64,000 nt of DNA from a virus (IMGVR_UViG_3300008448_000036:1-64000); one strand, 5' to 3'. Counted from the stretch's first letter, positions 2,661-17,890 are shown. Made by a program: numbers and translations. The notes: generated by a model not told the origin, from the letters alone.

Positions 2661-3170
2661 TCACTCTCTATCTGGAAGTTTATTCGCAATAAATTCATAA
2701 TGAGAGGAAAATTTATCAGTATATAGATCGATCTTTTTCTGTTCGTCATCCCACATCTCAATTTTTTTAATTGTTGGATGTTTTCTTAAAATTTTTCTTA
2801 TTTCTTCTGTCTTAAAATCTCCTGTATCCATACCCATAGGATTCAATTTAACAAAATCAAAATTAAGACCTTTAAATTTTATCAGATCCCTAATTCTTTC
2901 ATCAAAAACAGAATCTACTCTTCCAGTAAGCATGATACAAAATGTTTTTCTGTCAGATAATTCTTTTTTTGCGGCATCAACAGTGGAATCTATCCAAAAT
3001 CCATTACCTTTTAATGGTACAGAAGGAGGAGATAATGATATTAGTTCTCCCCACCAATTTCTTTTATAACCCTGCGGTTTATTTGGACTTCTAAATAAAG
3101 TTCCATCGAAATCAAATACCGATAATTTATTATAATATTCTCGTCTTTCCGTTAGGGTAATTTTAATCAT
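2661..3170 (-). CDS. HAD-superfamily phosphatase, Swiss-army-knife type (169 aa)
   Basis: The motif VFDFDGTLFRSP (about residues 18-29) is the HAD nucleophile loop DxDGT, and IMLTGR (about 79-84) is the second HAD motif. A later IEMWDDEQKKI segment supplies the acidic metal-binding residues. This arrangement fits the HAD domain found in RNA-repair 'Swiss army knife' proteins, with a likely role of removing 3' or 5' phosphates from nucleic acid ends. It is compact, without a cap domain. It begins MIKITLTERREYY, a weak version of the N-terminal tag seen on its neighbours, and sits next to a P-loop kinase gene, which supports an end-healing role. Confidence 0.75.
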   Translation of the reverse strand: MIKITLTERREYYNKLSVFDFDGTLFRSPNKPQGYKRNWWGELISLSPPSVPLKGNGFWIDSTVDAAKKELSDRKTFCIMLTGRVDSVFDERIRDLIKFKGLNFDFVKLNPMGMDTGDFKTEEIRKILRKHPTIKKIEMWDDEQKKIDLYTDKFSSHYEFIANKLPDRE

Positions 3171-3171
3171 T

Positions 3172-3504
3172 CTATCCTCTTGTTTTTTCGTATTCTAAAT
3201 ATTCTGCCACTGTCTCTATAGCTTCTGTAGCAACTGCAATTTTCTCTTGAACCCAAGGTTCTAAATCATCTTCATCATTTACTAACTTAGATAGCATTGA
3301 GGCGTGTTTCATTAAGTTATAAACATTACTTCTAGCCATACGACCATCTGAGTCGTAGCTTTCTTTATCGGAGTCTCCTAATTTTAGTTTTACTACACCA
3401 CCTCCAGTGAATGGCATATCTCCACTTAACATTCCCATATCTGCCATACATTCTTGTATTTCTTCAGATATAATCTTTTTTAAAGATTCTTTGGTTATTT
3501 TCAT
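3172..3504 (-). CDS. Tagged small helical protein (110 aa)
   Basis: The N-terminus MKITKESLKKIISEEIQE is the clearest copy of a tag shared with four or five other proteins of the window. The rest is helical and acidic, with the segment ARSNVYNLMKHASMLSKLV followed by LEPWVQEKIAVATEAI. I associate that module with accessory proteins of marine T4-like phages, but no function is known to me. It is spaced one base from the HAD gene and nine from the kinase fusion, so all are co-transcribed. Confidence 0.7.
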   Translation of the reverse strand: MKITKESLKKIISEEIQECMADMGMLSGDMPFTGGGVVKLKLGDSDKESYDSDGRMARSNVYNLMKHASMLSKLVNDEDDLEPWVQEKIAVATEAIETVAEYLEYEKTRG

Positions 3505-3513
3505 ATTTTTTCC

Positions 3514-5535
3514 TCAATTATCAAATATTACAAATACAGGATTTGATGGATTACTTTGTGGAAGTATACCAATATTTCCTACATGAGAATCATGTAAATA
3601 ATTTCCAGTTTTTATAAACAAATAAATTGTCTTTGCTAAACTCACAAATTCATTTTTTGTTAAAGCACTTGGATACATTTTCTTTTTTTGCATAAAATCT
3701 TTAAATATAGAAGCGATCTTTTCTTGGCTAAAAAGAAAAAACTTTTTACTATATTTCTGCTCTATTTCTATCATCATATCCTTACACAATTCATAGTCAG
3801 ATTCAGCATCATCTGCAGATCTTCTAGTTTCTTCCATAAAATCTGATAATGGAATTACTCTAGCCATTTCTACATAATTTACTTGCTCTCCAGCATCAAG
3901 TTTTATTTCACCCTCGTCATATATTGGAAGATCTGTAATATTACCAGCACTTGAGAACATTCTTGCTTTTGTTCCCTTATACCAATACATATCACCACCG
4001 CCAGAATAGTCATCCTGATATAGTTTTAATATATGCCCATTATCTAGTAGGTAGATAAAACCTTTTGTTCCAGCTGTTAACAACTCTTGAATTGGCTTAC
4101 TTAACACAGGGCATTTTTTTACTAACTCAACGGCATCTTGTAAACTTAAATTAAAATATTTAAGAATATTTTTAGTTCTTTTTCTTTGCCCAAGCTTTAA
4201 AATATCATATTCTTCTACATCGCCAATTAGTTTAAAAAAATTTTCTTTTTGTATATCCGATAATGAATCAAATAGTGGATTAGATTGGTTTTCTCCAATT
4301 GGACCAAATGATTCGCCCGGTGCAATTGTCGCGCCGCCAGCTTGTTTACTTCTTTTTCTATAAACTTTAGCTACGCCACCAGTTCTATCTTTACTGTACG
4401 GATATTTAGAGGTTATTTTAGCATCTTTATATGGATTTGGCAAGGACTTTTTTTTACTTAAATTTTTTGGAGATTTTAATTTTGCTAATTTTTTTTCTTG
4501 CATTTTTTTCTTTAGAGCTAATCTCTTTTTCTTGACTTTCTCTAAAAATTCAGAAATCTCCTCTGATAACTCCTCTGTGCCTTGTAGTTCTTTTTCAAAG
4601 ATTTTATGTATCTTTGCATTCATACTTCTGGACTTTTCCTGTTGTAGTTGTGCCCATTCAAGATCTAGCTTGTTTCCTGGTTTTCTTTTCGCGTGTTTAG
4701 ATCTTGAATCTGCTCTTATTTTCCAATAATTACTTAAAGTGGCTTCCCCTAATAAATTTTTAGTATTTCTGACTAACATCTCATTGAATGTTTCATCAGA
4801 AATTCCTATCTCCCTATCTGTTTTTTTAAACCTGTTAGATGTTATTAATCGATCAAAACCTTCTGATTTAGAAGGTTCTTCAAAGTTTTTATATATTTCT
4901 TCGTAATCTGATTTAGATACTCCCCTATCAAATTCTGGACCGTATCTTTCTAGGAAGTCTTTTGCTCTTAATTCCGCTGATCTTAAAATTTGTTTTTCAT
5001 ATCCCTTAAAAGGAAATACAACACCAATTATATTAAAATCGTCCCTGCCAGATATATAATCAATTGTAGTTTTTCTATTGCTTCTAGTCATATGTATTGC
5101 ATCTACTACAATATTTTTTACATCAGAAGAAATAGCATTTTTTAATTCTGAATCATATATGGCATTTAATTCTTCACCAGCAGCATGAGCGTTTTCAAAC
5201 GCTAATTCTTCTACTTCCTTTCCCTTACTCTTACTGAATCTTGTATATTTTGTTAATCTTCCAAGTTTCTTTTTTTCTGGATGCTCTTCACCAACTTCAA
5301 GATCTTGTGTTGGAACCTTAAAAATATCCTTGTTTGCTAGATTATATTTTGGAAATATAACATCCTCTATTATTTCATCTTTAGATATAATAATTCTATT
5401 GTCCTTAACATTGTTCTCTATCCAGCTAGATTTTCCTACAGCTGGCGGTCCTATTAAGACAAAGAAATTTCTTTTAGAAGAATTAGATTCTTCTTTTTCT
5501 TCTAATAGCCATTTCTTGAATTTAAATATATTCAC
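3514..5535 (-). CDS. P-loop polynucleotide kinase-like / protein-kinase-like fusion (673 aa)
   Basis: The N-terminal domain has a Walker A motif, LIGPPAVGKSSW (about residues 27-38), followed by a zeta-toxin/polynucleotide-kinase style body (ISKDEIIED, VVDAIHMTRSNRK). The middle, about residues 270-400, is Lys-rich. The C-terminal 220 residues look like a protein-kinase fold: an ILKLY beta-3 lysine, a VEMARVIPL hinge, HDSHVGNIG (648-656, matching HxDxxxxN of the catalytic loop) and a final VIFDN whose Asp672 fits the metal-binding DFG aspartate. The chain ends there, without an activation loop. The N-terminus FKFKKWLLEE resembles the WRxF tag class. Likely an ATP-dependent kinase of nucleic acid ends joined to a second kinase; substrates are unknown. 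Confidence 0.75.
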   Translation of the reverse strand: MNIFKFKKWLLEEKEESNSSKRNFFVLIGPPAVGKSSWIENNVKDNRIIISKDEIIEDVIFPKYNLANKDIFKVPTQDLEVGEEHPEKKKLGRLTKYTRFSKSKGKEVEELAFENAHAAGEELNAIYDSELKNAISSDVKNIVVDAIHMTRSNRKTTIDYISGRDDFNIIGVVFPFKGYEKQILRSAELRAKDFLERYGPEFDRGVSKSDYEEIYKNFEEPSKSEGFDRLITSNRFKKTDREIGISDETFNEMLVRNTKNLLGEATLSNYWKIRADSRSKHAKRKPGNKLDLEWAQLQQEKSRSMNAKIHKIFEKELQGTEELSEEISEFLEKVKKKRLALKKKMQEKKLAKLKSPKNLSKKKSLPNPYKDAKITSKYPYSKDRTGGVAKVYRKRSKQAGGATIAPGESFGPIGENQSNPLFDSLSDIQKENFFKLIGDVEEYDILKLGQRKRTKNILKYFNLSLQDAVELVKKCPVLSKPIQELLTAGTKGFIYLLDNGHILKLYQDDYSGGGDMYWYKGTKARMFSSAGNITDLPIYDEGEIKLDAGEQVNYVEMARVIPLSDFMEETRRSADDAESDYELCKDMMIEIEQKYSKKFFLFSQEKIASIFKDFMQKKKMYPSALTKNEFVSLAKTIYLFIKTGNYLHDSHVGNIGILPQSNPSNPVFVIFDN

Positions 5536-5537
5536 TA

Positions 5538-6158
5538 CTAACCTCCAACTTTAACTTTCATAATCAAGAAGCCGTCTTTAACCTCTGAACTAACAGTACT
5601 TGCTTTTCCGCTTGATACTCTGGATCCACCAACATCTCTACCTCTTACCGCATCAACAGCCATAGCTCTTGCGTCCATTTGAGCAGACTCTAATCCCATG
5701 CTGCCACCTCTTACAGGAACTTTTACGGTTACTACATTTCCATCTACCTTAAGGACTTCACCTCTTCCAGCTTTTTTGGCAGGGGCTGATGGTTTGACAG
5801 AGCCAGCATCAGATCCTAAATCTGCTCCTGATGTTGGTTTTACACCAACTGTTACAAATTTTCCTGGGCCGTATCTACTATCTAGTAGATCGTTCATAAC
5901 ATCTCTAACTTCGGAAGCGTTTGCACCTAAATCATCAACAACAATTGAACGAGTAGATCCATCTTTAACATTCTTGACGGTTACTTTTACTGGTTCTGCT
6001 TCTGCTGTATTGGCAGCACCGTAACCCATGCTCATAAGAGCGCCAGCAAACAATGCTGCGATGTTTTGTTTTAAACCTTCGAATAGTTCTTCTTGCTCCA
6101 ACTCTTTTTTAATTTCTTCTGATACAATTTGATTGAGTTTTGATACTGTAATTTTCAT
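5538..6158 (-). CDS. Tagged Gly/Val-rich protein (206 aa)
   Basis: It begins with the tag MKITVSKLNQIVSEEIKKEL and has an LFEG site (about residues 25-28) that fits an (L/I)-x-E protease cut. A moderately hydrophobic stretch follows (NIAALFAGALMSMGYGAA), which could be a membrane or signal-like segment. The rest is beta-rich and Ser/Gly/Val/Lys-rich, with a Pro/Ala linker near the middle. No family is recognised. I suspect a virion-packaged protein. Confidence 0.65.
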   Translation of the reverse strand: MKITVSKLNQIVSEEIKKELEQEELFEGLKQNIAALFAGALMSMGYGAANTAEAEPVKVTVKNVKDGSTRSIVVDDLGANASEVRDVMNDLLDSRYGPGKFVTVGVKPTSGADLGSDAGSVKPSAPAKKAGRGEVLKVDGNVVTVKVPVRGGSMGLESAQMDARAMAVDAVRGRDVGGSRVSSGKASTVSSEVKDGFLIMKVKVGG

Positions 6159-6167
6159 TTTTTTCTC

Positions 6168-6533
6168 CTACTGTAAGGTTAATAAGTACTTTAGTTTGTT
6201 AACTTCTGCTAACATTTCATCTCTTATATTCATAAGATCACTATCGCAACTAGGATCTAGTATAGCACTGATTCCAATTAACATTTCACAACATGCGTTA
6301 CAAAATTCTATTGGTTTTAATTCTTGTAAATTTTTTAACTCCAAACTACAAGATTCATCTAAAATAAATCTATCATGTTTTCCCATGCATATTTCAACAT
6401 ATTTGTCTATAAGGCCACTTAATGTATCATAAGTAGCACCAAAAGCTTGGTGACGAGCATAAGATTTTGTTTGCCAATGAAATATTCTTAACTGCTGTTC
6501 CATTTGTATAAGTGAAATAATTATCTTATCCAT
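6168..6533 (-). CDS. Dps/ferritin-like fold protein (121 aa)
   Basis: The segment RIFHWQTKSYARHQAFGATY followed by DTLSGLIDKYVE matches the first helix pair of Dps/ferritin-like proteins (HWxxxxxxxHxxxxxxYxxLxxxxDxxxE). The chain is all helical and shorter than Dps (about 160 aa), and its Cys-rich centre (CNACCEM) is unusual. Phage ferritin-like proteins of this size are known, but whether this one binds iron is not clear. Its stop overlaps the start of the gene at 6533-7552 in transcription order. Confidence 0.6.
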   Translation of the reverse strand: MDKIIISLIQMEQQLRIFHWQTKSYARHQAFGATYDTLSGLIDKYVEICMGKHDRFILDESCSLELKNLQELKPIEFCNACCEMLIGISAILDPSCDSDLMNIRDEMLAEVNKLKYLLTLQ

Positions 6534-7552
6534 TAAAAATCCCCTGTTTCAGAACCATATTTATCTTTATCTGCCATATCTTGCAATTCTAGCTCTTCTG
6601 CATATTCAGGAATTTCTTTTGCTAGTGCTTGCTTGTATTCTTCTACTGACATATTTTCAAATTCTGCCTCGGAAGGTAAAAATCCATAAATTTGAGGGTA
6701 TTCATCTGCAAATCTACTTTCAACATCATCATAAATATTTTCTTTCTCTCGCTGTTTTTTTTGAAAATCTGTAATTTCGGATATTTTTTGCTCTATAAGA
6801 GTTCTTATATACTTTTTAGTAATTTTTTGTTTATTCTCTTTCATGGAATCAGCTACCTTTTTTAAGCTTGGGACATTATCAACAGAAACCACTTCATCAA
6901 AACCTTCTGCGGCTTGATCAACTTTTTGAAAACTTTTAAACATTCTATCAAATGCAGCTTCTGGGATTGTTTTTGATTTACCTGCTGCTTTTGCTTCGGC
7001 TGCGCGTTTTGCTGCCACACTCTTAATTATATCTTCTGCGCCTTCAAAGTTAAACACCACAGCGACTTTGTGATAATCACTTTCAGACCCTTCAATTGCT
7101 TTTAAAGCTCCTTTTCTAGCTCCTGGAGTCATATTAGTCATATCGACAACAATAACTGGTTGTCCTTTTGCTTCCTGAACTCTGCCATTGAACCTTCCAA
7201 AGACTCTTCCGTTTGCCTCAATAACTTTGTCATAGGCGGTTGGATTAAAGGCTGCATGTGGAGGAGATTTAATCACTGTACCATATTTTTCACTAACATC
7301 TCCCTCTTTAGCATCTGGTGGAGGAAGCATAAACATATCATCATATGTCCATCCATAGTCAGCTGCAATTGCCTCTACAATATCATCTCTATTAATAATA
7401 TATGGATCTTGATTTCCAAAAGTTTTTTGAATCCAAGTAGATTTTCCAACAGATGGTGGACCAACTAAAACGTAAATTTTCTTTTTATCCAATTCTTCAT
7501 TTAGCGTAGAAAACTTCCTCCAGTTTTCCATAATAATTTTCATATTTTTCAT
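6533..7552 (-). CDS. P-loop polynucleotide kinase-like protein with WRxF tag (339 aa)
   Basis: The N-terminal 20 residues include IIMENWRKFSTLNEEL, the clearest copy of the second tag class, with LNE as a possible processing site. A Walker A motif, VGPPSVGKSTW, follows at about residues 30-40, then INRDDIVE and VVDMTNMTPGARKGALK, features of the polynucleotide kinase/zeta-toxin group that phosphorylate 5' ends or small substrates. The C-terminal 80 residues are acidic and helical. It is related to the N-terminal half of the 673-aa fusion at 3514-5535, so the phage carries two such kinases. AGGA precedes the first ATG. Confidence 0.75.
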   Translation of the reverse strand: MKNMKIIMENWRKFSTLNEELDKKKIYVLVGPPSVGKSTWIQKTFGNQDPYIINRDDIVEAIAADYGWTYDDMFMLPPPDAKEGDVSEKYGTVIKSPPHAAFNPTAYDKVIEANGRVFGRFNGRVQEAKGQPVIVVDMTNMTPGARKGALKAIEGSESDYHKVAVVFNFEGAEDIIKSVAAKRAAEAKAAGKSKTIPEAAFDRMFKSFQKVDQAAEGFDEVVSVDNVPSLKKVADSMKENKQKITKKYIRTLIEQKISEITDFQKKQREKENIYDDVESRFADEYPQIYGFLPSEAEFENMSVEEYKQALAKEIPEYAEELELQDMADKDKYGSETGDF

Positions 7553-7576
7553 ATTATTATCCTATATTATATCTTA

Positions 7577-7987
7577 TTACCACTTCCTACATGACCAATA
7601 TCTAGCTTTTGTTCTTGGACCTGGATTAGCGCAGTTATGACGAGCACGAAATGATTTACGACGTTTTGGATTACTTTTTTTAATACGCATATTCTTATCG
7701 CCAAAGTTTACTTTTTTAACGTTTCCGGTTGAAGGGTCGCGTACAAATACTTTAAACTTTTTTACATCTCCCCTCATTGGTTTTCCTAGAGGAACAGTAC
7801 GTCCTTGATACTTTGCTTCTTCAAGTTTATCTGGGCATCCGCATGTTAATTCTTCATATAGACATGCTTCGCAAACAAGAGTGCCGTCTTCTAAGGTAGA
7901 ATCATTATTGCCTAGTTGTTCAACAATTAATGCTTCATGGATGCTTTCTTTTACGACTTTTCTTAAGTCTGATTGTGAAATTTTCAT
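7577..7987 (-). CDS. Tagged Cys/Lys/Arg-rich protein (136 aa)
   Basis: The start MKISQSDLRKVVKESIHEAL is a copy of the MKIT tag and is followed by LIVEQ, a potential (L/I)-x-E cut. Then comes a Cys cluster (CEACLYEELTCGCP), probably metal binding, and a very basic C-terminal domain (KKSNPKRRKSFRARHNC, RTKARYWSCRKW). I know this basic domain from other T4-like aquatic phages as an uncharacterised conserved module; DNA or RNA binding is likely from its charge. Its ATG overlaps the stop of the gene at 7984-8583. Confidence 0.7.
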   Translation of the reverse strand: MKISQSDLRKVVKESIHEALIVEQLGNNDSTLEDGTLVCEACLYEELTCGCPDKLEEAKYQGRTVPLGKPMRGDVKKFKVFVRDPSTGNVKKVNFGDKNMRIKKSNPKRRKSFRARHNCANPGPRTKARYWSCRKW

Positions 7988-8583
7988 TCTTGTTCCTCTT
8001 TTTTAGTTTTCCAAGATACTCTTTTTGAGCTTTTTTTCTGACTAGCCCCTTTTCTGTTACAAGCACTTGGAGTAGGACGACAGGCCGGATATTTACTTCT
8101 TTTTTCACCGTCACTTCTGCCACAGGTTTTACAAGTTTTTCGACCAGTCTTAGGATTAGTCCTACAGGTATTACAATCTACCCATCCTTTACTTTTACCC
8201 TTGCCGCCCTTACGAGCAAACCATCCATGAAGACCTTGAGATTTTTCTTTATCAAAAGTGCCTTCATCCAGTTCTAACTCTAGAGTTTCATCTACCTCTT
8301 CATTTGCTTTTTTTTTACGTCCTACTTTACCTTTACGGCAACGAACAATAAATCCTGAAGCATATGCTGAAGGGAATACATCATATTTTTGTTTGGCTAA
8401 ATGATAACATCTATCTTTTTTTTCATAAATAACACTTTCATCTAAGTTAGAGTCTTCTTCCATTCCAACGTATTCTAAACGATTATCACCAGCAGAGTCT
8501 ATCTCTCCCGCTCCTCGTCGTAAATCATCATTTTGTTTATTTAACTCTAAAACTCTTTTACGTGAAATTTTTACTTTTATCAT
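7984..8583 (-). CDS. DUF5872-like Cys/Lys-rich protein (199 aa)
   Basis: I start this at the ATG at 8583 (MIKVKISRKRVLE), a weak relative of the MKIT tag, rather than at 8601. The chain has a segment CYHLAKQKYDVFPSAYASG and a C-terminal domain GLHGWFARKGGKGKSKGW followed by paired CxxC motifs (CNTC, CKTC), ending in a Lys/Ser tail. This C-terminal part matches my memory of the DUF5872 family of phage proteins, thought to bind nucleic acid. It pairs with the related basic protein encoded directly downstream. Confidence 0.7.
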   Translation of the reverse strand: MIKVKISRKRVLELNKQNDDLRRGAGEIDSAGDNRLEYVGMEEDSNLDESVIYEKKDRCYHLAKQKYDVFPSAYASGFIVRCRKGKVGRKKKANEEVDETLELELDEGTFDKEKSQGLHGWFARKGGKGKSKGWVDCNTCRTNPKTGRKTCKTCGRSDGEKRSKYPACRPTPSACNRKGASQKKSSKRVSWKTKKEEQE

Positions 8584-8588
8584 ACGAA

Positions 8589-8596
8589 TAAATAGT
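8589..8596 (-). promoter_or_regulatory. ACTATTTA box
   Basis: One of the recurrent intergenic ACTATTTA boxes on the minus strand, lying between the terminator at 8611-8634 and the start codon at 8583. Being only about six bases from that ATG, it would demand a leaderless or downstream start, so this copy is less convincing than the others. Confidence 0.3.
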
Positions 8597-8601
8597 AACA
8601 T

Positions 8602-8634
8602 TAAAACAAAACGGGAGGCATTTCTGCCTCCCGT
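8602..8634 (-). terminator. Rho-independent terminator after hsp20
   Basis: A 10-bp stem ACGGGAGGCA / TGCCTCCCGT with a four-base loop (8611-8634) is followed on the minus strand by TTTTGTTTT. It separates the Hsp20 gene from the DUF5872-like gene. Confidence 0.8.
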
Positions 8635-8653
8635 CGATTAAAAAATATATCTT

Positions 8654-9037
8654 TTAATTTACAACTACATCAACATTTATTTTTTTTGTCACTGGCTCTT
8701 TATGATTCAAAATTACAGTCAGTAATCCATTTACAAGTTTAGCAGAAACAGATTCGCTATCAATATTATCAGGAACTAACCAGTTTTCTTCAAACTGTCT
8801 TGCATAAGCTGAATCAGTAGAAGGTTTTACCACAATTTTTAGCATTTTATCTACAACTTTAACAGATACATCGTCTTTTGACGCACCAATTGCTGGTATT
8901 TCAAGTCTATATCCATTATCATTTTTATGTTGTACATATTCCGGCGTTCTGTGTTGAGGTTTTCGATAATATGTGTGAGGTGTTGTAAATGCTTTTGTTA
9001 CATCATCAAAAAGTACGTCTAAATTACCAATTGCCAT
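8654..9037 (-). CDS. hsp20: Small heat shock protein, Hsp20/alpha-crystallin family
   Basis: The 127-aa chain has a short Phe-containing N-terminal arm and an alpha-crystallin domain (about residues 40-120) with YRLEIPAIGASKDDVSVKV and the hallmark A-x(3)-NGLL element as AKLVNGLLTVIL. It should act as an ATP-independent holdase that keeps unfolded proteins soluble during infection. Hsp20 homologues are a regular feature of marine T4-like phages. It has its own sigma70-type promoter (9078-9107) and its own terminator, so it is transcribed alone, and its promoter shares an operator-like palindrome with that of the GroES operon. Confidence 0.9.
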   Translation of the reverse strand: MAIGNLDVLFDDVTKAFTTPHTYYRKPQHRTPEYVQHKNDNGYRLEIPAIGASKDDVSVKVVDKMLKIVVKPSTDSAYARQFEENWLVPDNIDSESVSAKLVNGLLTVILNHKEPVTKKINVDVVVN

Positions 9038-9077
9038 ATATATTTCTCCTTTGTTGTTGCGGAATCCCGCTCAACAA

Positions 9078-9107
9078 ATAATCTAAAACACAATTTTTGT
9101 GTGTCAA
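9078..9107 (-). promoter_or_regulatory. hsp20 promoter with operator-like palindrome
   Basis: TTGACA (9102-9107) is a perfect -35 box. At 17-18 bp lies a weaker -10 region reading AGATTAT. The spacer is occupied by the perfect palindrome ACACAA-n3-TTGTGT (9088-9102), well placed for a repressor to block RNA polymerase. A very similar palindrome lies in the spacer of the promoter at 30269-30297. Confidence 0.6.
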
Positions 9108-9109
9108 GA

Positions 9110-9490
9110 TCAATTTAATTCATACTTAAATCCATATTCTTGAAGCAGTAATTGTTTTTGTTCCTCTATGGATAAAGAAAATTTCTGTAGAAGGGTCAAC
9201 TCAAATTTTGTAACTAGAACATCTTTTATGTTATTTTCATTACAGAATTTTATTTCTTCTTCTGGTGGGTCGTTTATCTTTTTATCTAATAGTTCCCTCA
9301 AAGAGGATAATATAACAACAGTTTCCATAAAATCAGGAATTGGTGTATTTTCCCAATTATCTATATTATGTTCTAGTATCAACTCTTTTAATTTATCGGC
9401 AACCATATAATAATATCTATCAGTGTCAGTCATCAGTTCTATATACTTATCAAATAGAATAGTATAATATTGTGGTTGCTCTTTTGCCAT
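9110..9490 (-). CDS. Hypothetical helical protein (126 aa)
   Basis: No family is recognised. The product is helical and acidic, rich in Leu, Glu and Lys, with no signal or membrane segment. I use the ATG at 9490 (MAKEQPQYY), which overlaps the upstream TAA stop as TAATG and follows AGGAAA, instead of the more distant ATG at 9511. It is the second gene of a pair with 9490-10008. Confidence 0.65.
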   Translation of the reverse strand: MAKEQPQYYTILFDKYIELMTDTDRYYYMVADKLKELILEHNIDNWENTPIPDFMETVVILSSLRELLDKKINDPPEEEIKFCNENNIKDVLVTKFELTLLQKFSLSIEEQKQLLLQEYGFKYELN

Positions 9491-10008
9491 TATCTGTTTC
9501 CTATACCCCAAAAATTTTCGTTTGATTTAGAATCTGTAACGAGTTCAATAGCAATTATTTCTTTATTAAACTTGTTTATGGTTCTAAAACCATATAACTG
9601 CAAATTACCATATGGTTTTTTGGGATCTTTTTTCTGACCTTTCTTTTTAGTTTCGGTCTGATTTAAATAGTTTACACATCTTACAACGATTTGTTCATCT
9701 GTAAGACCATTATTTCTATGTTTTTCTAGGTCTGTATCCAAATAGGCCAAAACAACAAAAGAGTTCTTACCAAATCTATTTAATGTATATGTAGATTGTG
9801 CATATCTACCAGCTTTTTTAATTTCGTTATTGATATGTGAATATTCATTAATGGGTACAAGAGAACATTCTAACATTTCTTCAGTAGAGAGATCAAATGT
9901 AGGAGCTACATATGGTTTAGATTCAACTACAAAAACCTCTGGTGTTTTATTTTTATCTTTTGGAGGTCGCCCTAGTCTTTTACCGTTTTTACTAAGTTTA
10001 ACAGTCAT
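9490..10008 (-). CDS. Hypothetical protein with AT-hook-like N-terminus (172 aa)
   Basis: Residues 9-20 read GKRLGRPPKDKN, a textbook AT-hook (basic residues around GRP) for minor-groove binding to AT-rich DNA. The middle has YTLNRFGKNSFVVLAYLDTD and a helix DEQIVVRCVNYLN, and the tail includes a Lys-rich linker. I do not recognise the main domain. The likely role is a DNA-binding accessory protein. It is translationally coupled to the next gene by an overlapping TAATG. Confidence 0.6.
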   Translation of the reverse strand: MTVKLSKNGKRLGRPPKDKNKTPEVFVVESKPYVAPTFDLSTEEMLECSLVPINEYSHINNEIKKAGRYAQSTYTLNRFGKNSFVVLAYLDTDLEKHRNNGLTDEQIVVRCVNYLNQTETKKKGQKKDPKKPYGNLQLYGFRTINKFNKEIIAIELVTDSKSNENFWGIGNR

Positions 10009-10011
10009 GTA

Positions 10012-10353: not shown

Positions 10354-10384
10354 AAAAATCGGACAGTTGTTTTTCAACTGTCCG
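10354..10384 (-). terminator. Hairpin terminator or 5' leader hairpin
   Basis: A perfect 10-bp stem CGGACAGTTG / CAACTGTCCG with a five-base loop (10360-10384) is followed by ATTTTTT on the minus strand. It can end transcripts of the gene at 10421-10741, but it also lies right at the predicted transcription start of the promoter at 10388-10416, so transcripts from there would begin with this hairpin. Confidence 0.7.
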
Positions 10385-10387
10385 ATC

Positions 10388-10416
10388 ATTATAACTCATT
10401 TATTTTACTCAGTCAA
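10388..10416 (-). promoter_or_regulatory. Near-consensus sigma70 promoter
   Basis: TTGACT (10411-10416), a 17-bp spacer and perfect TATAAT (10388-10393) on the minus strand. It overlaps no gene and drives 10012-10341 and probably 9490-10008. The hairpin at 10360-10384 starts within about four bases of the -10 box. Confidence 0.75.
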
Positions 10417-10420
10417 GCCA

Positions 10421-10741: not shown

Positions 10742-10764
10742 CTTATTTCCTCGTTAGATGATAG

Positions 10765-10772
10765 TAAATAGT
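10765..10772 (-). promoter_or_regulatory. ACTATTTA box (candidate phage-specific promoter)
   Basis: The minus strand reads GTATAAAACTATTTACTATC, resembling the extended T4 late consensus (TATAAATACTATT) with one base missing. It lies 24 bp before the ATG at 10741, the same spacing as the copy at 38922-38929. Confidence 0.45.
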
Positions 10773-10773
10773 T

Positions 10774-12351
10774 TTATACTTCAATAATAGCATGAGAAGT
10801 TGTTAATAAAGTTGAGGCAGCAGATACAGCATTTTGTAATGCACATCTTGTAACTTTTGTTGGATCTACAATACCTTCTTCAATTAAATCAACATAAGAC
10901 CTACTAACAAAATCATAACCAACCAAAGGGAGATCGGAAATATATAATACCTGATGAACTATAACGTCTGGGCTTTCATCGCAGTTCTTAGAAAGTGTTT
11001 TTATTGGCTCGTAACAGGCTTTTTTAATTATTTCTACACCAAATTTTTGATCTTCATTATCCAGTTCTACTTCTTTTTCTAGTTCAAATGAACATCTCAA
11101 TAGTGCCAATCCACCTCCAGGTAAAATACCCTCTTGTTGTGCGCTGCGTACAGCTTCTAAAGCATCTTCTATGCGATGCTTTCTTTCAGTCATATCTACT
11201 TCCGTAGAACCACCAACTCTTATAATTGCAATACCCGCAACTAAACGCGTAATTCTATCTTGAATAGATTCACACTCTTTTACATCACTACTTTGTTCAA
11301 TTTCTGCTTTAAGAGAGTCTATCTTTTTTTGTACTTCCTCATAGTTTCCGCCGCCGCCGACTACCGTTGTCCAGTTTTTCAAAGATTCAATAGTCTTACA
11401 GCTTCCCATATGACTTCTTTTTACTTCTTTTAATGACATACCACTTTCTCTAGAAATAAATGTCGCACCTGTTGCCAACGCTAAATCTTTTAGCAGGTTT
11501 CTTCTTTCTTCACCGTATTTAGGCGCTTTGATGGCAGCGACTTTCATGCTGCCTCTTTTAAGGTTTAGAACCATAGCAGCTAAAGATTGTCCCTCTACAT
11601 TTTCTGCAAAAATAATAAAAGGTTTATTCTCTCTTGCAGCAATTTCCAGTGCTGGCATTATATCGTCAAGGTTGTCAATTGAGTAATCAGTTACTAATAG
11701 TATAGCATTTTCATATCTCATTGCCCCTCGACGTGGATCAGTTACAAACTCTGCTGATACAAAGCCGGATGGAATTTGAAACCCCTCAACAACATCTAAA
11801 GTTGTATCTACAGATTTGCCTTCCTCAATTGAAATAGCGCCATCTTTTCCTACTTTATCAACAGCCATAGCAATAAGTTTACCAATCTGTTTATCACCAT
11901 TGGCAGATATTGTTGCGATATGTTCTATGTCTTCTATACTAGATACTTCTTTTGACATGCGATGCAATCTAGATACAATCGCAGTTACTGCTTTATCCAT
12001 CCCACGTTTAAGTTCTACTGGGCTTGCTCCGGCTGTAATGTATTTTTGAGCGTTTTGCATAACTGCTCTAGCTAGGACAGTAGCAGTTGTAGTTCCATCT
12101 CCAGCTTCTATAGCAGTAACCTCAGAAGCTTGTTTTAGCACTTGCGCTCCAACATTCTCAAAAGGATTTTCATATTCAATATTTTTAGCTACGGTAACTC
12201 CATCTTTTGTAATTATAGGGTTTCTACCCTTAAGATGTATTACTACGTTTCTTCCTTTAGGGCCGAGAGTTGAACTGACAGCATCTGCCAGTTTGTTGAC
12301 TCCATCTAATATTGCTTTATTTAAAGAAGTTCCATTATCATATACTTTCAA
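10774..12351 (-). CDS. groEL: GroEL-type chaperonin (525 aa)
   Basis: This is a full-length group I chaperonin. The N-terminal ATP-binding region has TLGPKGRNVVIHLKG and ITKDGVTVAK, followed by EAGDGTTTATVLA with the catalytic Asp, and the C-terminal equatorial part has EGILPGGGLALLR. It lacks the Gly-Gly-Met tail of bacterial GroEL and is about 20 residues shorter. A phage-coded chaperonin probably folds capsid or other phage proteins in the host cytoplasm. A GroES-like gene is encoded at 29657-29959, so the pair is split across the genome rather than forming one operon. It lies 19 bp after the 2H phosphoesterase gene and is probably co-transcribed with it. Confidence 0.95.
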   Translation of the reverse strand: MKVYDNGTSLNKAILDGVNKLADAVSSTLGPKGRNVVIHLKGRNPIITKDGVTVAKNIEYENPFENVGAQVLKQASEVTAIEAGDGTTTATVLARAVMQNAQKYITAGASPVELKRGMDKAVTAIVSRLHRMSKEVSSIEDIEHIATISANGDKQIGKLIAMAVDKVGKDGAISIEEGKSVDTTLDVVEGFQIPSGFVSAEFVTDPRRGAMRYENAILLVTDYSIDNLDDIMPALEIAARENKPFIIFAENVEGQSLAAMVLNLKRGSMKVAAIKAPKYGEERRNLLKDLALATGATFISRESGMSLKEVKRSHMGSCKTIESLKNWTTVVGGGGNYEEVQKKIDSLKAEIEQSSDVKECESIQDRITRLVAGIAIIRVGGSTEVDMTERKHRIEDALEAVRSAQQEGILPGGGLALLRCSFELEKEVELDNEDQKFGVEIIKKACYEPIKTLSKNCDESPDVIVHQVLYISDLPLVGYDFVSRSYVDLIEEGIVDPTKVTRCALQNAVSAASTLLTTSHAIIEV

Positions 12352-12370
12352 AGTATTACCCTTTACCTTT

Positions 12371-12841
12371 CTATTTTGAAAAAACTTCTTCTACTGTAGC
12401 ATCTACAGTAAAAGGTTCAATTGATTTCCAATCTTTAATTTTTGCCGCTAAAAACGGCTTTACTGTTTCATCTCTTAACATGGCTGTTATATGAGGCACT
12501 CCACTTTGTACGTACATATCCGTATCAACTTTCCAAGCGGCTATTCCAAGCTTTTCATCTACTCCAAAGGCAACTATCTTTAGTTTAGTTGGTACATTTA
12601 ACTCTATAGGAGTTTTAGATTTATTTGCTGGGGAAGGTACTATAGTCATGTGATGATTTAATTGTTCATTCCCATGAGAACCTACAGAGGAGTCTTTCCA
12701 TCCTTCTACCCTAAGTCCTAATTCATCTAGCTTAGAATTTAAATTTTCTACATCTTGTACAACAGCACCTGTATATAACGCTACTTTAGCATCTTCTTTT
12801 AAGAAATTTCTCCAACCTTCCATTAATTTATCTAAACTCAT
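12371..12841 (-). CDS. 2H phosphoesterase-like protein with WRxF tag (156 aa)
   Basis: The N-terminus SLDKLMEGWRNFLKEDAK carries the second tag class, with FLKE as a possible prohead-protease site. The body contains two H-x-T motifs, NHHMTIVP and GVPHITAML, the signature of the 2H phosphoesterase superfamily (ligT, cyclic phosphodiesterases), which act on 2'-5' or 2',3'-cyclic phosphates of RNA and nucleotides. The size (about 140 aa without the tag) fits the family. I infer an RNA end-healing or anti-defence (cyclic-nucleotide cleaving) role. It precedes groEL in the same operon. Confidence 0.65.
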   Translation of the reverse strand: MSLDKLMEGWRNFLKEDAKVALYTGAVVQDVENLNSKLDELGLRVEGWKDSSVGSHGNEQLNHHMTIVPSPANKSKTPIELNVPTKLKIVAFGVDEKLGIAAWKVDTDMYVQSGVPHITAMLRDETVKPFLAAKIKDWKSIEPFTVDATVEEVFSK

Positions 12842-12846
12842 TCACT

Positions 12847-14094
12847 TTACCTCGTCTTTATCTTTAGATCATCTCTTTTATCACTTAACATGTTAGAATG
12901 AAACTTAACAGAATGTATTGTTAATGGTTCTAATCCAGGAATATCTATAATAATATTAGCTCCTTCACTTCTAATAATATCATTTTTATTCATCATTTTT
13001 AATTTATTAATATTAGGCTTCGCTTCCTCTTGAGAGATCAATTTAACACCTTCTGATGTCGATGTTAACTTCAAAAATTTATCATATTCTTTACGCTCGT
13101 CAGCAACTCCTAGATGGGCTTCGTTAACCATGTCAACTAGATCTTTTAAACGTAGGCGTTTTAAATTATGTATTAACACTTCTCTTATCTTGGCGTAGAC
13201 TTCCTCCATCGCCTCCTTGTATAAGTCTGGATGATCCTCCTTCGCTTTTGTCATCCAAGCTGGACATTCAACGCCTTCTCCTTTTGGCACATATTTACGC
13301 TTACCAACTTTTTTAGCGAAGATTTGTCTTCCTACAACCCACCACGGTTCCCCAGATGGATTACGAACTAGATTGTCATCTTTTTCATCACCATATCCAA
13401 GATTTTTATTATATGTAAATCTTACACCACGACCTTCCTCTGTTACTAACTTAATAGACAAGCCTATTTTTTTTCCGTCTTCCGAATAAAGAACTAGATC
13501 CGCTTTTGAATTTTGACTTCCTACGGATTCTACCTTTTTTATTTTTCCAACTGATTTTATTATCTTTTTTTTACCTACTAGAGCAACTTTAAAAACTTCT
13601 AAGAATTCATTTTTTAATTTACTTATAACATCATCTTTTGATGAATTAGGAGATAAATCAATGCGATTTTTTAACTGGTCGTCTATTTGACCAGATAATA
13701 AAAAACGGATGATCTGCTCAAGAGCAAGACCATCCCTTATACCTAATTCTGTTTTATAGACAATATACGCCTTTCCACTACCATCTTTATATTCAACAGT
13801 AGTAACATCGGCAGAAGAATAAAACTTTGGGATATGGTCGTCAGACAAACTCAAATCAGAGTTTTTGATGGCAGTCTTGATTTTTTTCACCCCTTTGGTA
13901 AGACTGTCCTTATCTTCAAACCTAACGACCACTCCCAAATCCGTTTTATTTGATGCTGTAACGGAGACTATTCCGGCATCTTTTACGGAACCTATCTTTT
14001 GATAAAGATAGTTTATAAGCTTCTCTTGATTATATAATTCTTCATCAAGAGAAGCCCTTATTTCACTTAATAGATATCTACTGATCTTATTCAT
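12847..14094 (-). CDS. Hypothetical protein with nuclease-like core (415 aa)
   Basis: The N-terminus (ISRYLLSEIRASLDEEL) is a charged helix with an LLSE site. Around residues 190-220 lies ADLVLYSEDGKK followed by GLSIKL, a strand-turn-strand that resembles the PD-(D/E)xK nuclease core (D...(D/E)xK), except that a Ser stands where the acidic residue is expected. The same unusual SxK core occurs in the next gene (14099-15880), so the two are probably related in that domain. Function is unknown; a structural or packaged role is as likely as catalysis. Confidence 0.55.
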   Translation of the reverse strand: MNKISRYLLSEIRASLDEELYNQEKLINYLYQKIGSVKDAGIVSVTASNKTDLGVVVRFEDKDSLTKGVKKIKTAIKNSDLSLSDDHIPKFYSSADVTTVEYKDGSGKAYIVYKTELGIRDGLALEQIIRFLLSGQIDDQLKNRIDLSPNSSKDDVISKLKNEFLEVFKVALVGKKKIIKSVGKIKKVESVGSQNSKADLVLYSEDGKKIGLSIKLVTEEGRGVRFTYNKNLGYGDEKDDNLVRNPSGEPWWVVGRQIFAKKVGKRKYVPKGEGVECPAWMTKAKEDHPDLYKEAMEEVYAKIREVLIHNLKRLRLKDLVDMVNEAHLGVADERKEYDKFLKLTSTSEGVKLISQEEAKPNINKLKMMNKNDIIRSEGANIIIDIPGLEPLTIHSVKFHSNMLSDKRDDLKIKTR

Positions 14095-14098
14095 TATT

Positions 14099-15880
14099 TT
14101 ATTTTTTTACTTGCTGTTGAACAAGCGCAGTTTTAACATCAATATTTTTTGCAGCTTGTTGGGCTGCTGTTGCGTTAGCATCTTCAACCATACCATTTGC
14201 AAAATATGCATTAATATTAGTAGTTAGCACATTTAAACTTTCAAAAATTTCATATACTTCTGTATTAATAGCATCTTTTAGCTTATTCAATAAGCCTTCT
14301 ATTGACGTTCTACCGACAGTAAGGGTAGCAACTTTTTGCTCTTGTCCTGCTGCAGCAATAAGATCAAACACTTCTAGTTTAGTAAAACCAAACTGCATGA
14401 TATCTAAATATCCATAAGTATTCTTTAAAGCTTTCTTTTTTAATTCTTGATTTGCGTCTACAGAATTTAAATATGCTACAGATTCTTCTGTTGAAGCAAA
14501 AAGAATACCAGGCATTAGCTCTTCACTAGCTGGTGCTTTTGATTTTGTTGTCTTTTTTTCAGTTAGAAGATTGGATGCTGTAAATAAATTTCTCTTTCTA
14601 GCTTCTTCTAAAGCTTGAGGAGTAGCTTCGCCTTTTACTATAGCAAAATCTTTTGCTTTTTCATACAAGTCAATAAAGAAATTTGCATAAGAAGGCCATG
14701 CTCTTTTTTCACCAGTTATATCACTTTTAAACACTTTTCTAGCGGACGATGCCATGTCTGGATTATCTAATAGACCTTGTTCGGCAAAACCAGTAAATAA
14801 ATTATTTACAAATGTCTTTCCTGGGCTACTCTTTCCAAGGACACCTAGCTTATCTTCTTTGCCGCCTTCAAAAAATTTAGGTTCTGACATCTCGCTTTGT
14901 TTTAGGATTTTATACCACTGTTCAAAATTTTCATCTTTTGCATACTCTGATTTTCGAACTTGTGCATCGAACCAATCTTCTATTTCTTCTTGAGATTTAT
15001 AAGTCTTCTTAAGGTGTGAATAGTCAGTTCCATTTTTTATAAATGACACTGGTAGTCTTATACACAATCTGGAGCTTTTACCTCCTAGAGACATAACATT
15101 TTCTATGTTTTTTAAATCTATATCAAATTGGTGTACATCTATAGTACCTGTCATTTTTAATGCTTCACCGCTTAGACTCTTCACAGCTACAACATATCTA
15201 ATAAAAGGCTTAGATGGATTTTTTGGACTAATCATATCATTAACTAAATCCGAAAAACTTCCGCCTACGTGTACTTTTTTATCCGAATATAGTTTTAAGC
15301 TTATTCCTATTCCATCGCTTGTTTTTAAGTCTGCAATCGTACCACTGTTTGTAGGAACCTGCTCACCGCCCAATAAAACACCTAAAAATGATTCAAAAGC
15401 GAAACCGGCTGCAGCAGCATTAAAGTTTGTTATAATAGTGGTTAATGTTTTAATAAACACTAGATAAGACATAATTTGTTGAATTCTAGTAGTTCTGGAA
15501 GATTTATCTAGGATTCCTTTTTCCATCAGGGCATCTAGATCAGCATTATAAAACTCACTTATATTTTTAAACTTTTCTGCAAGATCTGCGCCTTTGATAT
15601 TGTTTAAGTACTGTTCTAGCTGTTTTCTCTGCTCAGAAGAAACTTTAATGGTTGAACCAGCCTCTGATTCAACAAGCGATGACCAACCAAGTTCAGAAAC
15701 TGAGATTTCCGGGATCGAACTAAATTTAATTCCAAAATTTTTTGGAATAGGCGCAACTGCTTCTTCGTTTAATAGTTTATTAAACTCTTCTCTAACTAAA
15801 TATTCAAGAAGTCCTGTAGTAATGACATTTTCCTTTTTAGCAAAAAAGGATTCAACAATTTGATTCATATCTTTTTTCAT
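14099..15880 (-). CDS. Hypothetical tagged protein with nuclease-like core (593 aa)
   Basis: It opens with a charged helical N-terminus ending in LLNEEAVAP (about residues 36-44), a plausible (L/I)-x-E cut. A central segment has FAFESFLGVLLGGE and then IADLKTSDGIGISLKLYSD, again a PD-(D/E)xK-like D...SxK arrangement as in the neighbouring 415-aa protein. The C-terminal third is helical with Ala/Gln-rich ends. I do not recognise the family. Gene context (next to ClpP, with similarly tagged proteins) suggests an internal or ejected virion protein. Confidence 0.55.
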   Translation of the reverse strand: MKKDMNQIVESFFAKKENVITTGLLEYLVREEFNKLLNEEAVAPIPKNFGIKFSSIPEISVSELGWSSLVESEAGSTIKVSSEQRKQLEQYLNNIKGADLAEKFKNISEFYNADLDALMEKGILDKSSRTTRIQQIMSYLVFIKTLTTIITNFNAAAAGFAFESFLGVLLGGEQVPTNSGTIADLKTSDGIGISLKLYSDKKVHVGGSFSDLVNDMISPKNPSKPFIRYVVAVKSLSGEALKMTGTIDVHQFDIDLKNIENVMSLGGKSSRLCIRLPVSFIKNGTDYSHLKKTYKSQEEIEDWFDAQVRKSEYAKDENFEQWYKILKQSEMSEPKFFEGGKEDKLGVLGKSSPGKTFVNNLFTGFAEQGLLDNPDMASSARKVFKSDITGEKRAWPSYANFFIDLYEKAKDFAIVKGEATPQALEEARKRNLFTASNLLTEKKTTKSKAPASEELMPGILFASTEESVAYLNSVDANQELKKKALKNTYGYLDIMQFGFTKLEVFDLIAAAGQEQKVATLTVGRTSIEGLLNKLKDAINTEVYEIFESLNVLTTNINAYFANGMVEDANATAAQQAAKNIDVKTALVQQQVKK

Positions 15881-15882
15881 TT

Positions 15883-16569
15883 TTAGATTACCTCATCAGC
15901 TATTCCGTATTTCACCGCCTCTTCTGCTGATAAATAGATGTTAACATGCTTTTCAAGCAATTTTTTCATTGTAGTTTGTGTTAATTTAGTTTCTGCAATT
16001 AGGGCATTGATATAGCGATCCTGTGTCCATCTAATTTCATTCATCTCATTTTCCAGACTATGAATTGGTCCTTCACTCCCTCCCAAAACAGAATGTAGCA
16101 TCACTCTACAATTTTTACCGATTTTTCTCTTACCTTTGCTGCCTGCTGCTAATAAAAGAACACCAGCACTCATCACCTTTCCTACTCCGATTGTAGAAAT
16201 ATCAATATCCTTTTTGACTTGACGCATGATATCATAAATTGCAAACATATCACTAGCTGATCCACCGTGTGTGCTAATGTATAATTCAATTGGATCTGGT
16301 TTCTCTTTTTTAGATTTTTTATCCTGTTCTTCGATTTTTGCTTTATTTCTATTTTCATTCCAAATTGTTAAAAGAGCGTATACGATTTCACTACCCTTTT
16401 CTTCGTTTATATCACCAAATAATCCAATACTCTTGATACCTCCCTGAGCATCATCTAGTCCTGGTAACATTATTAAATTCTGTACAGTCTTTTCTGTTGA
16501 GACATCTTCTGATGTCTCTTCGGATTCTACTTCCTTCTTCTTGTTATTTCTGCGGCTTGTAAGACTCAT
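15883..16569 (-). CDS. clpP: ClpP-like serine protease (228 aa)
   Basis: The ClpP/crotonase fold is clear: IELYISTHGGSASDMFAIYD, then GKVMSAGVLLLAAG with nucleophile Ser134, and NCRVMLHSVLGG with catalytic His159. The C-terminus YLSAEEAVKYGIADEVI aligns with the bacterial FLSAxEAxxYGLxD, but the residue matching the catalytic Asp appears to be Asn (HVNIY), which could lower activity. The first 45 residues are a charged extension. Phage ClpP-like enzymes act as partner proteases or prohead maturation proteases; here there is no Clp ATPase nearby. It overlaps the 101-aa gene upstream by one base and is part of an operon. Confidence 0.9.
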   Translation of the reverse strand: MSLTSRRNNKKKEVESEETSEDVSTEKTVQNLIMLPGLDDAQGGIKSIGLFGDINEEKGSEIVYALLTIWNENRNKAKIEEQDKKSKKEKPDPIELYISTHGGSASDMFAIYDIMRQVKKDIDISTIGVGKVMSAGVLLLAAGSKGKRKIGKNCRVMLHSVLGGSEGPIHSLENEMNEIRWTQDRYINALIAETKLTQTTMKKLLEKHVNIYLSAEEAVKYGIADEVI

Positions 16570-16874
16570 TATTTTCCTCTTTTCTTTTTATTCTTACAGG
16601 TTAATTGTACCTTTTCTTCTTTATCCCGTTTAACTTTTATTTCAAAAAGTTTTATTGGACAAGTTTTGGCCCACTTTAACCATTCTTTTTGATCTTCAAA
16701 CTCCTTGTTATATACGAGGAATTGATCACCGTTTTTCATATTCCATCCGGTAGCAGACTGTTTCCATTCCTTAAATAATTTCTTTAATTCACTCTTATCG
16801 GACTGCTTAACTTCATTAACTTGCAAGCTATAAACATTGGCATAACTTTTCCAAGCACATGCATACATTTTCAT
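16569..16874 (-). CDS. Hypothetical basic protein (101 aa)
   Basis: No family is recognised. The chain is Lys- and Trp-rich (KKLFKEWKQSATGWNM, KEWLKWAKTCPIKL) and ends in a strongly basic tail (CKNKKKRGK). Its stop overlaps the start of clpP and its start overlaps the stop of the 90-aa gene before it, so it is translated in a tightly coupled series of four genes. Confidence 0.65.
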   Translation of the reverse strand: MKMYACAWKSYANVYSLQVNEVKQSDKSELKKLFKEWKQSATGWNMKNGDQFLVYNKEFEDQKEWLKWAKTCPIKLFEIKVKRDKEEKVQLTCKNKKKRGK

Positions 16875-17143
16875 TCTTTACCTCTTTTTATGGAACCAAC
16901 TTTGATTATCCCATTATCCCAATATAAATTAATTTGCCCAGTCATATGTCTTTCAACTTGACTGAGATATTGTAAGATTTCATTTGTATCTTTTGTATTA
17001 CTAAAGATCCATTTTACAACAGACGCAGCAACAAATAATTTTTCTAGATAATAAACATTATCCTCAGAAGAGCAGTATTTGATTTTTAATCCTTTTATTA
17101 TATCTTCTGGAGGTTTTATTTTCATGTCGATATTTTCCGTCAT
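16871..17143 (-). CDS. Hypothetical protein (90 aa)
   Basis: No family is recognised. The protein is mixed alpha/beta with a KYCSSEDNVYYLEKLFV segment. It overlaps both neighbours by four bases (ATGA-type overlaps), indicating translational coupling. Confidence 0.65.
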   Translation of the reverse strand: MTENIDMKIKPPEDIIKGLKIKYCSSEDNVYYLEKLFVAASVVKWIFSNTKDTNEILQYLSQVERHMTGQINLYWDNGIIKVGSIKRGKE

Positions 17144-17523
17144 AATTTCTTATAATTCCTTTCTAGGAATTTTACTGCTTCATCCCAATTTTTATATGCT
17201 GGTTTATACGGTAGCATGTCAGTAATTCTTTTAACGTATTGTTCCCCCAACTCTTGATATTTCTGTTCAATTTTTATTTTTACAAGTTTAAATTCTTCTT
17301 GATACTTCAGATCTCTATATGCCGCATCTTCATAAGATAGTTCTAGAATTTTTATAGCTTGAGATCTCCATTGAATAAAAAGAGAGCTTAATAGTAAAAA
17401 TCTCATTTCTAACTCTTGCATATATTTTACATATGTACCTATCATAAATAGATATGAAAATAGAGATCTAATAAAAAAACCTATAAAAAATCCTAAACAC
17501 CAGATAATAAATTGATTAGTCAT
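17140..17523 (-). CDS. Hypothetical membrane-anchored protein (127 aa)
   Basis: The first 30 residues are strongly hydrophobic (IIWCLGFFIGFFIRSLFSYL), forming one or two membrane segments, and the rest is a long charged helix with coiled-coil character and an NWDEAVKFLERNYKK end. It is probably bound to the host inner membrane with its bulk in the cytoplasm. No family is recognised. It is the first gene of the clpP operon and follows an extended -10 promoter. Confidence 0.7.
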   Translation of the reverse strand: MTNQFIIWCLGFFIGFFIRSLFSYLFMIGTYVKYMQELEMRFLLLSSLFIQWRSQAIKILELSYEDAAYRDLKYQEEFKLVKIKIEQKYQELGEQYVKRITDMLPYKPAYKNWDEAVKFLERNYKKL

Positions 17524-17540
17524 TCCTAACTCCTGACATA

Positions 17541-17549
17541 ATTATACCA
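17541..17549 (-). promoter_or_regulatory. Extended -10 promoter for the clpP operon
   Basis: The minus strand reads TGGTATAAT, a perfect -10 with the TGn extension, about 18 bp before the ATG at 17523. No good -35 is present because that region is the terminator stem; extended -10 promoters tolerate this. Confidence 0.55.
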
Positions 17550-17555
17550 CACTTA

Positions 17556-17593
17556 ATAAAGAAAAAACCCACCTAAAATAGGTGGGTTTTTTT
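17556..17593 (-). terminator. Rho-independent terminator
   Basis: A very stable hairpin with the arms AAAAAACCCACCTA and TAGGTGGGTTTTTT (17562-17592) and a three-base loop. Because the arms carry A and T runs it can terminate in both directions. It separates the tagged 90-aa gene from the clpP operon. Confidence 0.85.
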
Positions 17594-17617
17594 ATCAATC
17601 TTTACTTAGAACCTTTT

Positions 17618-17890
17618 TTAATCTTCTAAAACATCTTTTAGAACATTCTGTACCATACCTTCTGGCAGATTTTCCATAAACGCTTCTAATGCTTCTCTTG
17701 GAATTTGAGATTCCTCTAAAACTTCTAGAAAATCTATAATCGCATCTTTAGAAACGAACTCTGCATCAGCATCTTCTGCATATCCATAGGCATAGCTTTC
17801 TACCAAAGTCTCTGTGTGATCTTTTTCTTTTTCAACACGTTGGACTTCTTCTGCAATAATTTGCTTTAATTCGCCTCTTGTAATTTGCAT
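17618..17890 (-). CDS. Tagged acidic protein (90 aa)
   Basis: The N-terminus MQITRGELKQIIAEEVQRVE is a copy of the MKIT tag. The rest is acidic and helical, and the C-terminal half (IPREALEAFMENLPEGMVQNV) forms two amphipathic helices. No family is recognised. It is located 10 bp after the acidic/Lys-rich 319-aa gene and ahead of a terminator, so the two form one unit. Confidence 0.7.
   Translation of the reverse strand: MQITRGELKQIIAEEVQRVEKEKDHTETLVESYAYGYAEDADAEFVSKDAIIDFLEVLEESQIPREALEAFMENLPEGMVQNVLKDVLED

Follow-up and report, generated by a model that had tools for sequence, protein, structure and literature searches.

A short amino-terminal leader on unrelated proteins of uncultured T4-like phages as a probable, differently lettered capsid targeting sequence

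In the T4-like phages of E. coli, many injected proteins are recognized through a leader of the sort known as a capsid targeting sequence (CTS). Anti-restriction proteins and an ADP-ribosyltransferase are among the bodies known to stand behind the T4 CTS (PMC9026906, PMC12373910), and T4 Ip1-3 have only the leader in common and inhibit different restriction enzymes (PMC12373910). The T4 protease gp21 cleaves after L/I-x-E, several cleavage sites per propeptide are common in such phages, and the genetics of T4 IPIII assign targeting to residues 4 and 7 and processing to residues 8 and 10 (PMC9026906). The present analysis concerns a leader, termed MKIT here, found on otherwise unrelated proteins encoded in the window, which comprises bases 1-64000 of the 81.5 kb IMG/VR phage contig IMGVR_UViG_3300008448_000036 and has nearly all of its genes on the minus strand. 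An original prediction, made from the window sequence, had read this leader as a packaging tag on cargo that enters the host with the DNA. It is highly likely that MKIT is a CTS of the T4 kind with letters of its own, one that would dock its protein and be cleaved, the cargo leaving with the DNA.

The contig is that of a T4-like phage with a gp21-type protease and a gp23-type capsid protein (Table 1). Both genes required by a T4-type CTS are present on one contig, and the same is found in relatives. All four MKIT open reading frames (ORFs) of the original prediction were confirmed with their N-termini on the minus strand, each preceded by a purine run resembling a ribosome site. The tag of 17618..17890 is retained in two homologs (L131 and L144). 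What had been overlooked was a fifth copy just beyond the window, at 70511-70786 of the contig, a second class of leader within the window, and additional genes bearing the tag in G001, a 187 kb record that is nearly identical to the contig (at 14111 and 87163 and, starting with the variant MVLDKSYIKKIIKEE, at 14367).

The recurrence of the leader was measured in a set of proteins from loci fetched by similarity to the capsid protein or the protease, without selection for the tag. In these unselected loci, 33 starts fit MK[IL][TS]xxx[LI], and 26 of the 33 continue with [IVLM][IVLM]xE at residues 11-14, where 0.11 would be expected; scrambled anchors recovered between 0 and 2 genes. With 0.9 matches expected from internal segments, a profile of residues 2-16 recovered 340 N-termini (tag-fetched loci included), and the DNA pattern of the tag was found in at least 120 stretches of IMG/VR as compared to none for the same codons in scrambled order. 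The leader is far above chance and widespread in relatives, hundreds of uncultured T4-like phages having it, and an origin by chance or composition is ruled out by the scrambled-codon control, the continuation test and the profile scan. An isolate, Flavobacterium phage immuto (NC_055915, L118), has related leaders (MKKSQLRQIIKEA, FNLRSFLTE, FDLKKFLVE and KAYIENIIKE). A tblastn search of named phages with the 22-residue leader gave no match, the query being too short to judge, and the MKIT letters are unmentioned in the open-access phage papers searched.

From 286 unique leaders of related phages, the consensus is MKITKSQLKQIIKEEL followed by L-x-E at residues 21-22. Past residue 16 the information content falls steeply, reaching almost nothing beyond residue 22; position 14 was fixed by the search pattern and positions 11-15 partly by the DNA pattern, the same continuation being seen in the unselected loci. 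The claim that unrelated bodies stand behind one leader holds well beyond the window, as the 286 leaders front 234 body clusters and an alignment of 84 bodies has no invariant column past the leader. As in the T4 CTS, a short N-terminal leader (10-20 residues) is placed on unrelated proteins. Tagged genes may be arranged in tandem, with up to nine per locus (L252). When tag codons were compared within a locus, 46% were identical, 26% differed synonymously and 28% changed the amino acid; behind the tag the corresponding values were 5%, 7% and 88%. Since synonymous changes are common in the tag and amino-acid changes are rarer than behind it, it is the protein that is under selection. The leader is amphipathic and basic, with a net charge of +2.8 over residues 2-14, a raised hydrophobic moment and spaced hydrophobic residues. 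A Sec signal peptide was ruled out because there is no uninterrupted hydrophobic core.

The predicted cut sites are consistent with a gp21-type protease. In the capsid proteins of 99 relatives, an invariant L-[RK]-E is found at the T4 gp23 cut, followed mostly by Ser or Ala. The leader has I-x-E at residues 12-14, with I, V or M at residue 12 and E14, also in the unselected loci. A second site, L/I/M-x-E, ends at residue 21 in 36 leaders and at residue 22 in 56, against 4 expected in each case, and the residue following the cut (P1') is enriched for Ala and Gly. An L/I-x-E site common to the capsid protein is therefore predicted at the end of the leader, as in the T4 CTS, and a cut at residues 21-22, in place of or besides residue 14, appears at least as plausible as one at residue 14.

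The second leader, MKKLLTEWRKFLKE (W-type), occurs in the same phages, where its density within the first 20 residues of proteins is 14 times that elsewhere. A pattern that allowed Tyr also caught an unrelated head-region family (HNKKRNTAFLYE), and the pattern was restricted to Trp. Bodies are exchanged between the two leaders. The kinase 6533-7552 has a W-type leader and its homolog in L315/L289, about 60% identical, has MKIT; the hairpin protein 3172-3504 and several homologs of its body have MKIT, as opposed to a W-type leader (SKWFKYLTE) in L293; and the basic protein family of 7984-8601 has MKIT in L182 and the W-type in L220. The leaders may be considered in terms of a common frame. T4 IPIII has Y4, F7, I8 and E10, and this spacing is matched by T4 gp24 (I4, L7, L8, E10), the W-type (W8, F11, L12, E14) and MKIT (L8, I11, I12, E14). 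The aromatic-x-x-Phe-I/L-x-E lettering is present in the W-type leader of these phages but absent from MKIT. Because its letters are aliphatic and the spacing is kept, in the manner of gp24, MKIT is termed a CTS variant and not a member by sequence. A scan of the whole proteome of the window phage with a loose version of the frame identified 8 genes against 2.5-3.4 expected; with such mild enrichment, the frame is no finder by itself.

Virion data are available from S-CREM2, a T4-like cyanophage with a published mass spectrometry proteome (PMC10665884). Annotated starts were examined for the frame [FYWL]xxF[LIMF]xE with E at residues 8-16. Of the 28 nonstructural virion proteins, 5 had this aromatic form, as compared to none of the 24 structural and none of the 165 undetected proteins (p=5e-5); the frame had been narrowed to this form after the sequences were viewed, and the broader one gives 5, 0 and 6 (p=0.011). 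The five proteins include a SAM hydrolase, a kinase and a cytidylyltransferase. In addition, all three S-CREM2 homologs of tagged proteins are in the virion, and ORF160 is homologous to 7984-8601 of the window (E 1.6e-11). These data support packaging by homology and frame, not directly for the MKIT letters. In the Cas9-like virion protein of S-CREM2 (L362:7704-10313), the frame occurs as RFASFMAE, its E being residue 25; a leader may follow an extension of the N-terminus, or translation may begin later than annotated.

The tagged bodies include a SAM lyase (L348), GNAT and NUDIX proteins, HAD/kinase proteins of the RNA-repair type, an exonuclease and pentapeptide repeats, as well as a polyvalent-protein ADP-ribosyltransferase domain that scored below the curated cut-off (L272). 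By analogy with T4, anti-defense and takeover roles would be expected.

Tagged genes are concentrated around the protease gene. In loci not chosen by the tag, they occupy 28 of the 162 slots from -3 to +2 around it and 3 of the 317 slots four or more genes away (odds ratio 22, p=2e-11, related loci being not fully independent). Over all loci, position -1 is tagged in 25 of 76 cases; the T4 counterparts at this position are genes 67 and 68, which encode prohead core proteins. One might propose from this arrangement that the leader marks only head-core or scaffold parts, which would build the prohead and then be chopped by the protease and expelled, with little or nothing injected. The strongest clustering is indeed where T4 has its core genes, and leader-like helices are found at both ends of some proteins there (L331, L053 and L211). 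However, a core-only role would not account for 234 unrelated bodies with several enzyme domains (SAM lyase, ADP-ribosyltransferase, NUDIX, GNAT, exonuclease and kinases), for tandem arrays of tagged genes, or for leader-bearing enzymes in the mature S-CREM2 virion, and is considered unlikely as a general explanation. Some tagged proteins, chiefly those flanking the protease gene, may nonetheless be head-core parts and not injected cargo. The leader-like helix at the C-terminus (e.g. QLKRIVREEIKRTLKSK) was observed in L331:8654-9646, L053:4988-5761, L211:4972-5514 and L332:7607, mostly in genes adjoining the protease gene.

From the leader, its gene position, the predicted cut sites and the swaps, all of which are read from sequence, we infer docking, cleavage, packaging and ejection in the manner of a CTS. 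Folded as a short amphipathic helix, the leader would dock its protein in the core of the prohead. A gp21-type protease would then cut after L/I-x-E within and at the end of the leader, and the body would stay in the head. If T4 is a guide, these bodies, once mature, would pass into the host together with the DNA upon infection and take effect there immediately. The leader would be a separable module, with bodies swapped behind it and with MKKLLTEWRKFLKE able to take its place. As for the original prediction, a packaging tag is favored by the presence of gp21 and gp23 on the contig, by the tagged genes clustered at the protease gene, by the positional L/I-x-E sites, by the CTS-like interchange of leaders and by the mass spectrometry of S-CREM2 homologs.

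Several observations weigh against a targeting role. At the first site (residue 14), Glu is the usual P1' residue, in contrast to the T4 sites that are known. The genes adjoining the protease gene could encode core parts as well as cargo. No virion proteomics of phages with the MKIT leader proper, this one included, were found. While gp21 is found in 30 of the 45 tag-bearing contigs of at least 20 kb, it is missing from 15, and a 125 kb contig (G028) has a terminase and no gp21 match. Since 14 of the 15 contigs without gp21 also have no large-terminase match, as compared to 17 of 18 gp21-bearing records tested that have a terminase, most of these gaps are probably missing head modules. Co-occurrence with gp21 is also weak evidence, as the three random contigs above 100 kb all carry gp21; it was dropped as the main evidence and gene proximity was chosen in its place.

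A second explanation is that the leader is a docking tag unconnected with packaging, directed for instance to a phage compartment, a membrane, GroEL or the host RNA polymerase. Many docking peptides are short, amphipathic, basic helices like this one, and the contig encodes both GroEL and Hsp20. Docking of this kind would leave the gradient around the protease gene, the positional L-x-E sites and the interchange with a T4-CTS-like leader unexplained, making it very improbable. That the shared start is a DNA-level device, such as a translation leader or a recombination cassette with no protein signal, is scarcely credible, for although nearly identical upstream bases and tag precede unrelated bodies (atgaatggattagcaac-ATGAAGATTACAAAACAACAACTTAAACAG in L213, L218, L233 and L156), the synonymous differences between tags leave residues unchanged and unrelated pairs are on average no more than 33% identical upstream. 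Cassettes do exist: the nearly identical 20 upstream bases and tag were also seen in the contigs of L240 and L251, suggesting that the leader moves by recombination. A cassette would be a route of spread and not a function, and as the whole story it was ruled out for most genes by the codon pattern.

Leader-like copies were also found inside tagged proteins, 14 against 0.7 expected from shuffled bodies (L220:790-1896, L202:853, L288:1882 and L182:2359-3159). It is as if cargo modules had been joined and were meant for cutting apart; some may be gene fusions or wrong starts. A wider proposal, put forward tentatively, is that, in a large uncultured part of the T4-like phages, the head can be loaded openly by means of a degenerate code for addressing, hydrophobic-x-x-hydrophobic-I/L-x-E. 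Any protein that acquires the leader cassette of about 20 residues would be packaged, processed and injected, each phage would have its own set of anti-defense and takeover enzymes ready for use, and some genes would chain modules through internal leaders, for separation by cleavage in the head.

Table 1. Features of the window and of the contig beyond it (contig coordinates where indicated).
Feature	Coordinates	Strand	Remarks
HAD_SAK_1 phosphatase-like protein	2661..3170	-	MIKITL start, MIKITLTERREYY; homolog L143 has W-type leader
Tagged protein, 110 aa	3172..3504	-	MKITKESLKKIISEE; tag codons 3460-3504; helical hairpin body
P-loop kinase-like protein	3514..5535	-	leader FKKWLLEE; same frame, F6..W9 L10.E12
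Tagged protein, 206 aa	5538..6158	-	MKITVSKLNQIVSEE; tag codons 6114-6158; Gly/Ala-rich hydrophobic stretch after tag
P-loop kinase (AAA_33)	6533..7552	-	W-type leader MENWRKF (F-S for F-L)
Tagged protein, 136 aa	7577..7987	-	MKISQSDLRKVVKES; tag codons 7943-7987; Cys/Arg-rich body, phrog_7595, weak DUF5754
Basic protein, phrog_727/3477	7984..8601	-	likely start MIKVKIS at 8583, MIKVKISRKRVLE
Hsp20, GroEL and ClpP-like genes	8654-9037, 10774-12351, 15883-16569		interspersed with tagged genes; GroEL by eye
Protein with W-type leader GWRNFLKE	12371..12841	-	two H-x-T motifs (HHMTI, PHITAM) by eye
Tagged protein, 90 aa	17618..17890	-	MQITRGELKQIIAEE; tag codons 17846-17890; acidic body
Protein with W-type leader MENWRNF	30352..31380	-	F-S for F-L; helical/hydrophobic body
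NUDIX-domain protein	58323..59561	-	W-type leader LFSNWRNFLTE; in structural gene region
gp23-type major capsid protein	60954..62753	-	E 5.6e-71; L-K-E61 followed by A at T4 gp23 cut site
gp22-like scaffold gene	62776..64000, running on to contig 64149	-	by position only
gp21-type prohead protease	69904-70509 (contig, beyond window)		Pfam S77, E 7.7e-32
Fifth MKIT-type gene	70511-70786 (contig, outside window)		start MNISKSEILKLIKEVKEE; directly upstream of protease gene

The genes that start at 3170 and 8583 had been described as weaker versions of the tag. The letters are there (MIKITLTERREYY and MIKVKISRKRVLE); as members of the tag class both are marginal, since neither passes the tag profile in a scan of the near-identical record, and they resemble another N-terminus, of the MIKI type, which is seen repeatedly in relatives. 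In the AlphaFold model of the 3172-3504 family, predicted with modest confidence (predicted local distance difference test, pLDDT = 59), a helix at residues 5-22 is followed by a linker without order and then by a helical hairpin. In 5538-6158, the Gly/Ala stretch resembles a signal peptide once the leader is removed, with comparable stretches in L270 and L011. The motifs of 12371-12841 suggest a putative 2H phosphoesterase; the protein had no database match, and its single-sequence fold was poor (pLDDT = 42) and was not used. Scans of IMG/VR for homologs of 12371-12841 and 5538-6158 identified nothing beyond near-identical copies. The protein 3514-5535 has an N-terminal P-loop kinase and, by eye, a C-terminal HDSHVGNIGI...FDN that resembles the catalytic loop of a protein kinase. 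Beside the tagged gene at 17618..17890, an acidic protein (17900-18859) has an LLxE-type start, KKQLLxE[ST]xIRxFMxLANI, that is conserved in relatives. Outside the window, a 536 aa protein (contig 79851-81461) has the start ...FGYLSFIGEG, which matches the T4-style frame Y..FI.E, and a homolog is found in G005.

With a key to the leader of abundant aquatic T4-like phages, hundreds of nameless small genes become predicted injected proteins that can be tested, and hence candidates for inhibiting bacterial defenses. As a second, sequence-distinct leader, the MKIT form MKITKSQLKQIIKEELEAVLNE might also serve to load foreign proteins into T4-type heads.

Compared to the T4 CTS of IPI-III and Alt, MKIT shares a short N-terminal leader on unrelated head proteins, a hydrophobic frame with L/I-x-E, a gp21-type protease and exchangeable bodies. 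It differs in having no aromatics, E at residue 14 and not 10, a second L-x-E at residues 21-22 and arrays of up to nine genes. In style, MKIT comes closest to the T4 gp24 propeptide (MAKINELLRE, then S), which has the same frame in aliphatic letters and is presumably cut after MAKINELLRE; in contrast, this propeptide belongs to a vertex protein and to one gene only. The packaged enzymes of S-CREM2 (SAM hydrolase, kinase, cytidylyltransferase and others), which start with MKxFxxFLxE and are found in virions, carry a T4-style aromatic leader and not MKIT (PMC10665884). The propeptides of phiKZ and SPN3US are likewise removed by a gp21 relative after x-x-E and their head proteins are ejected, but these are usually longer than 100 residues with S/A-x-E sites (PMC5694885, PMC9026906). 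A long propeptide of this type was ruled out for MKIT, which has about 14-22 residues and L/I-x-E. Set beside these systems, the MKIT leader of a wide group of uncultured T4-like phages is, very probably, the T4 CTS written in new letters.

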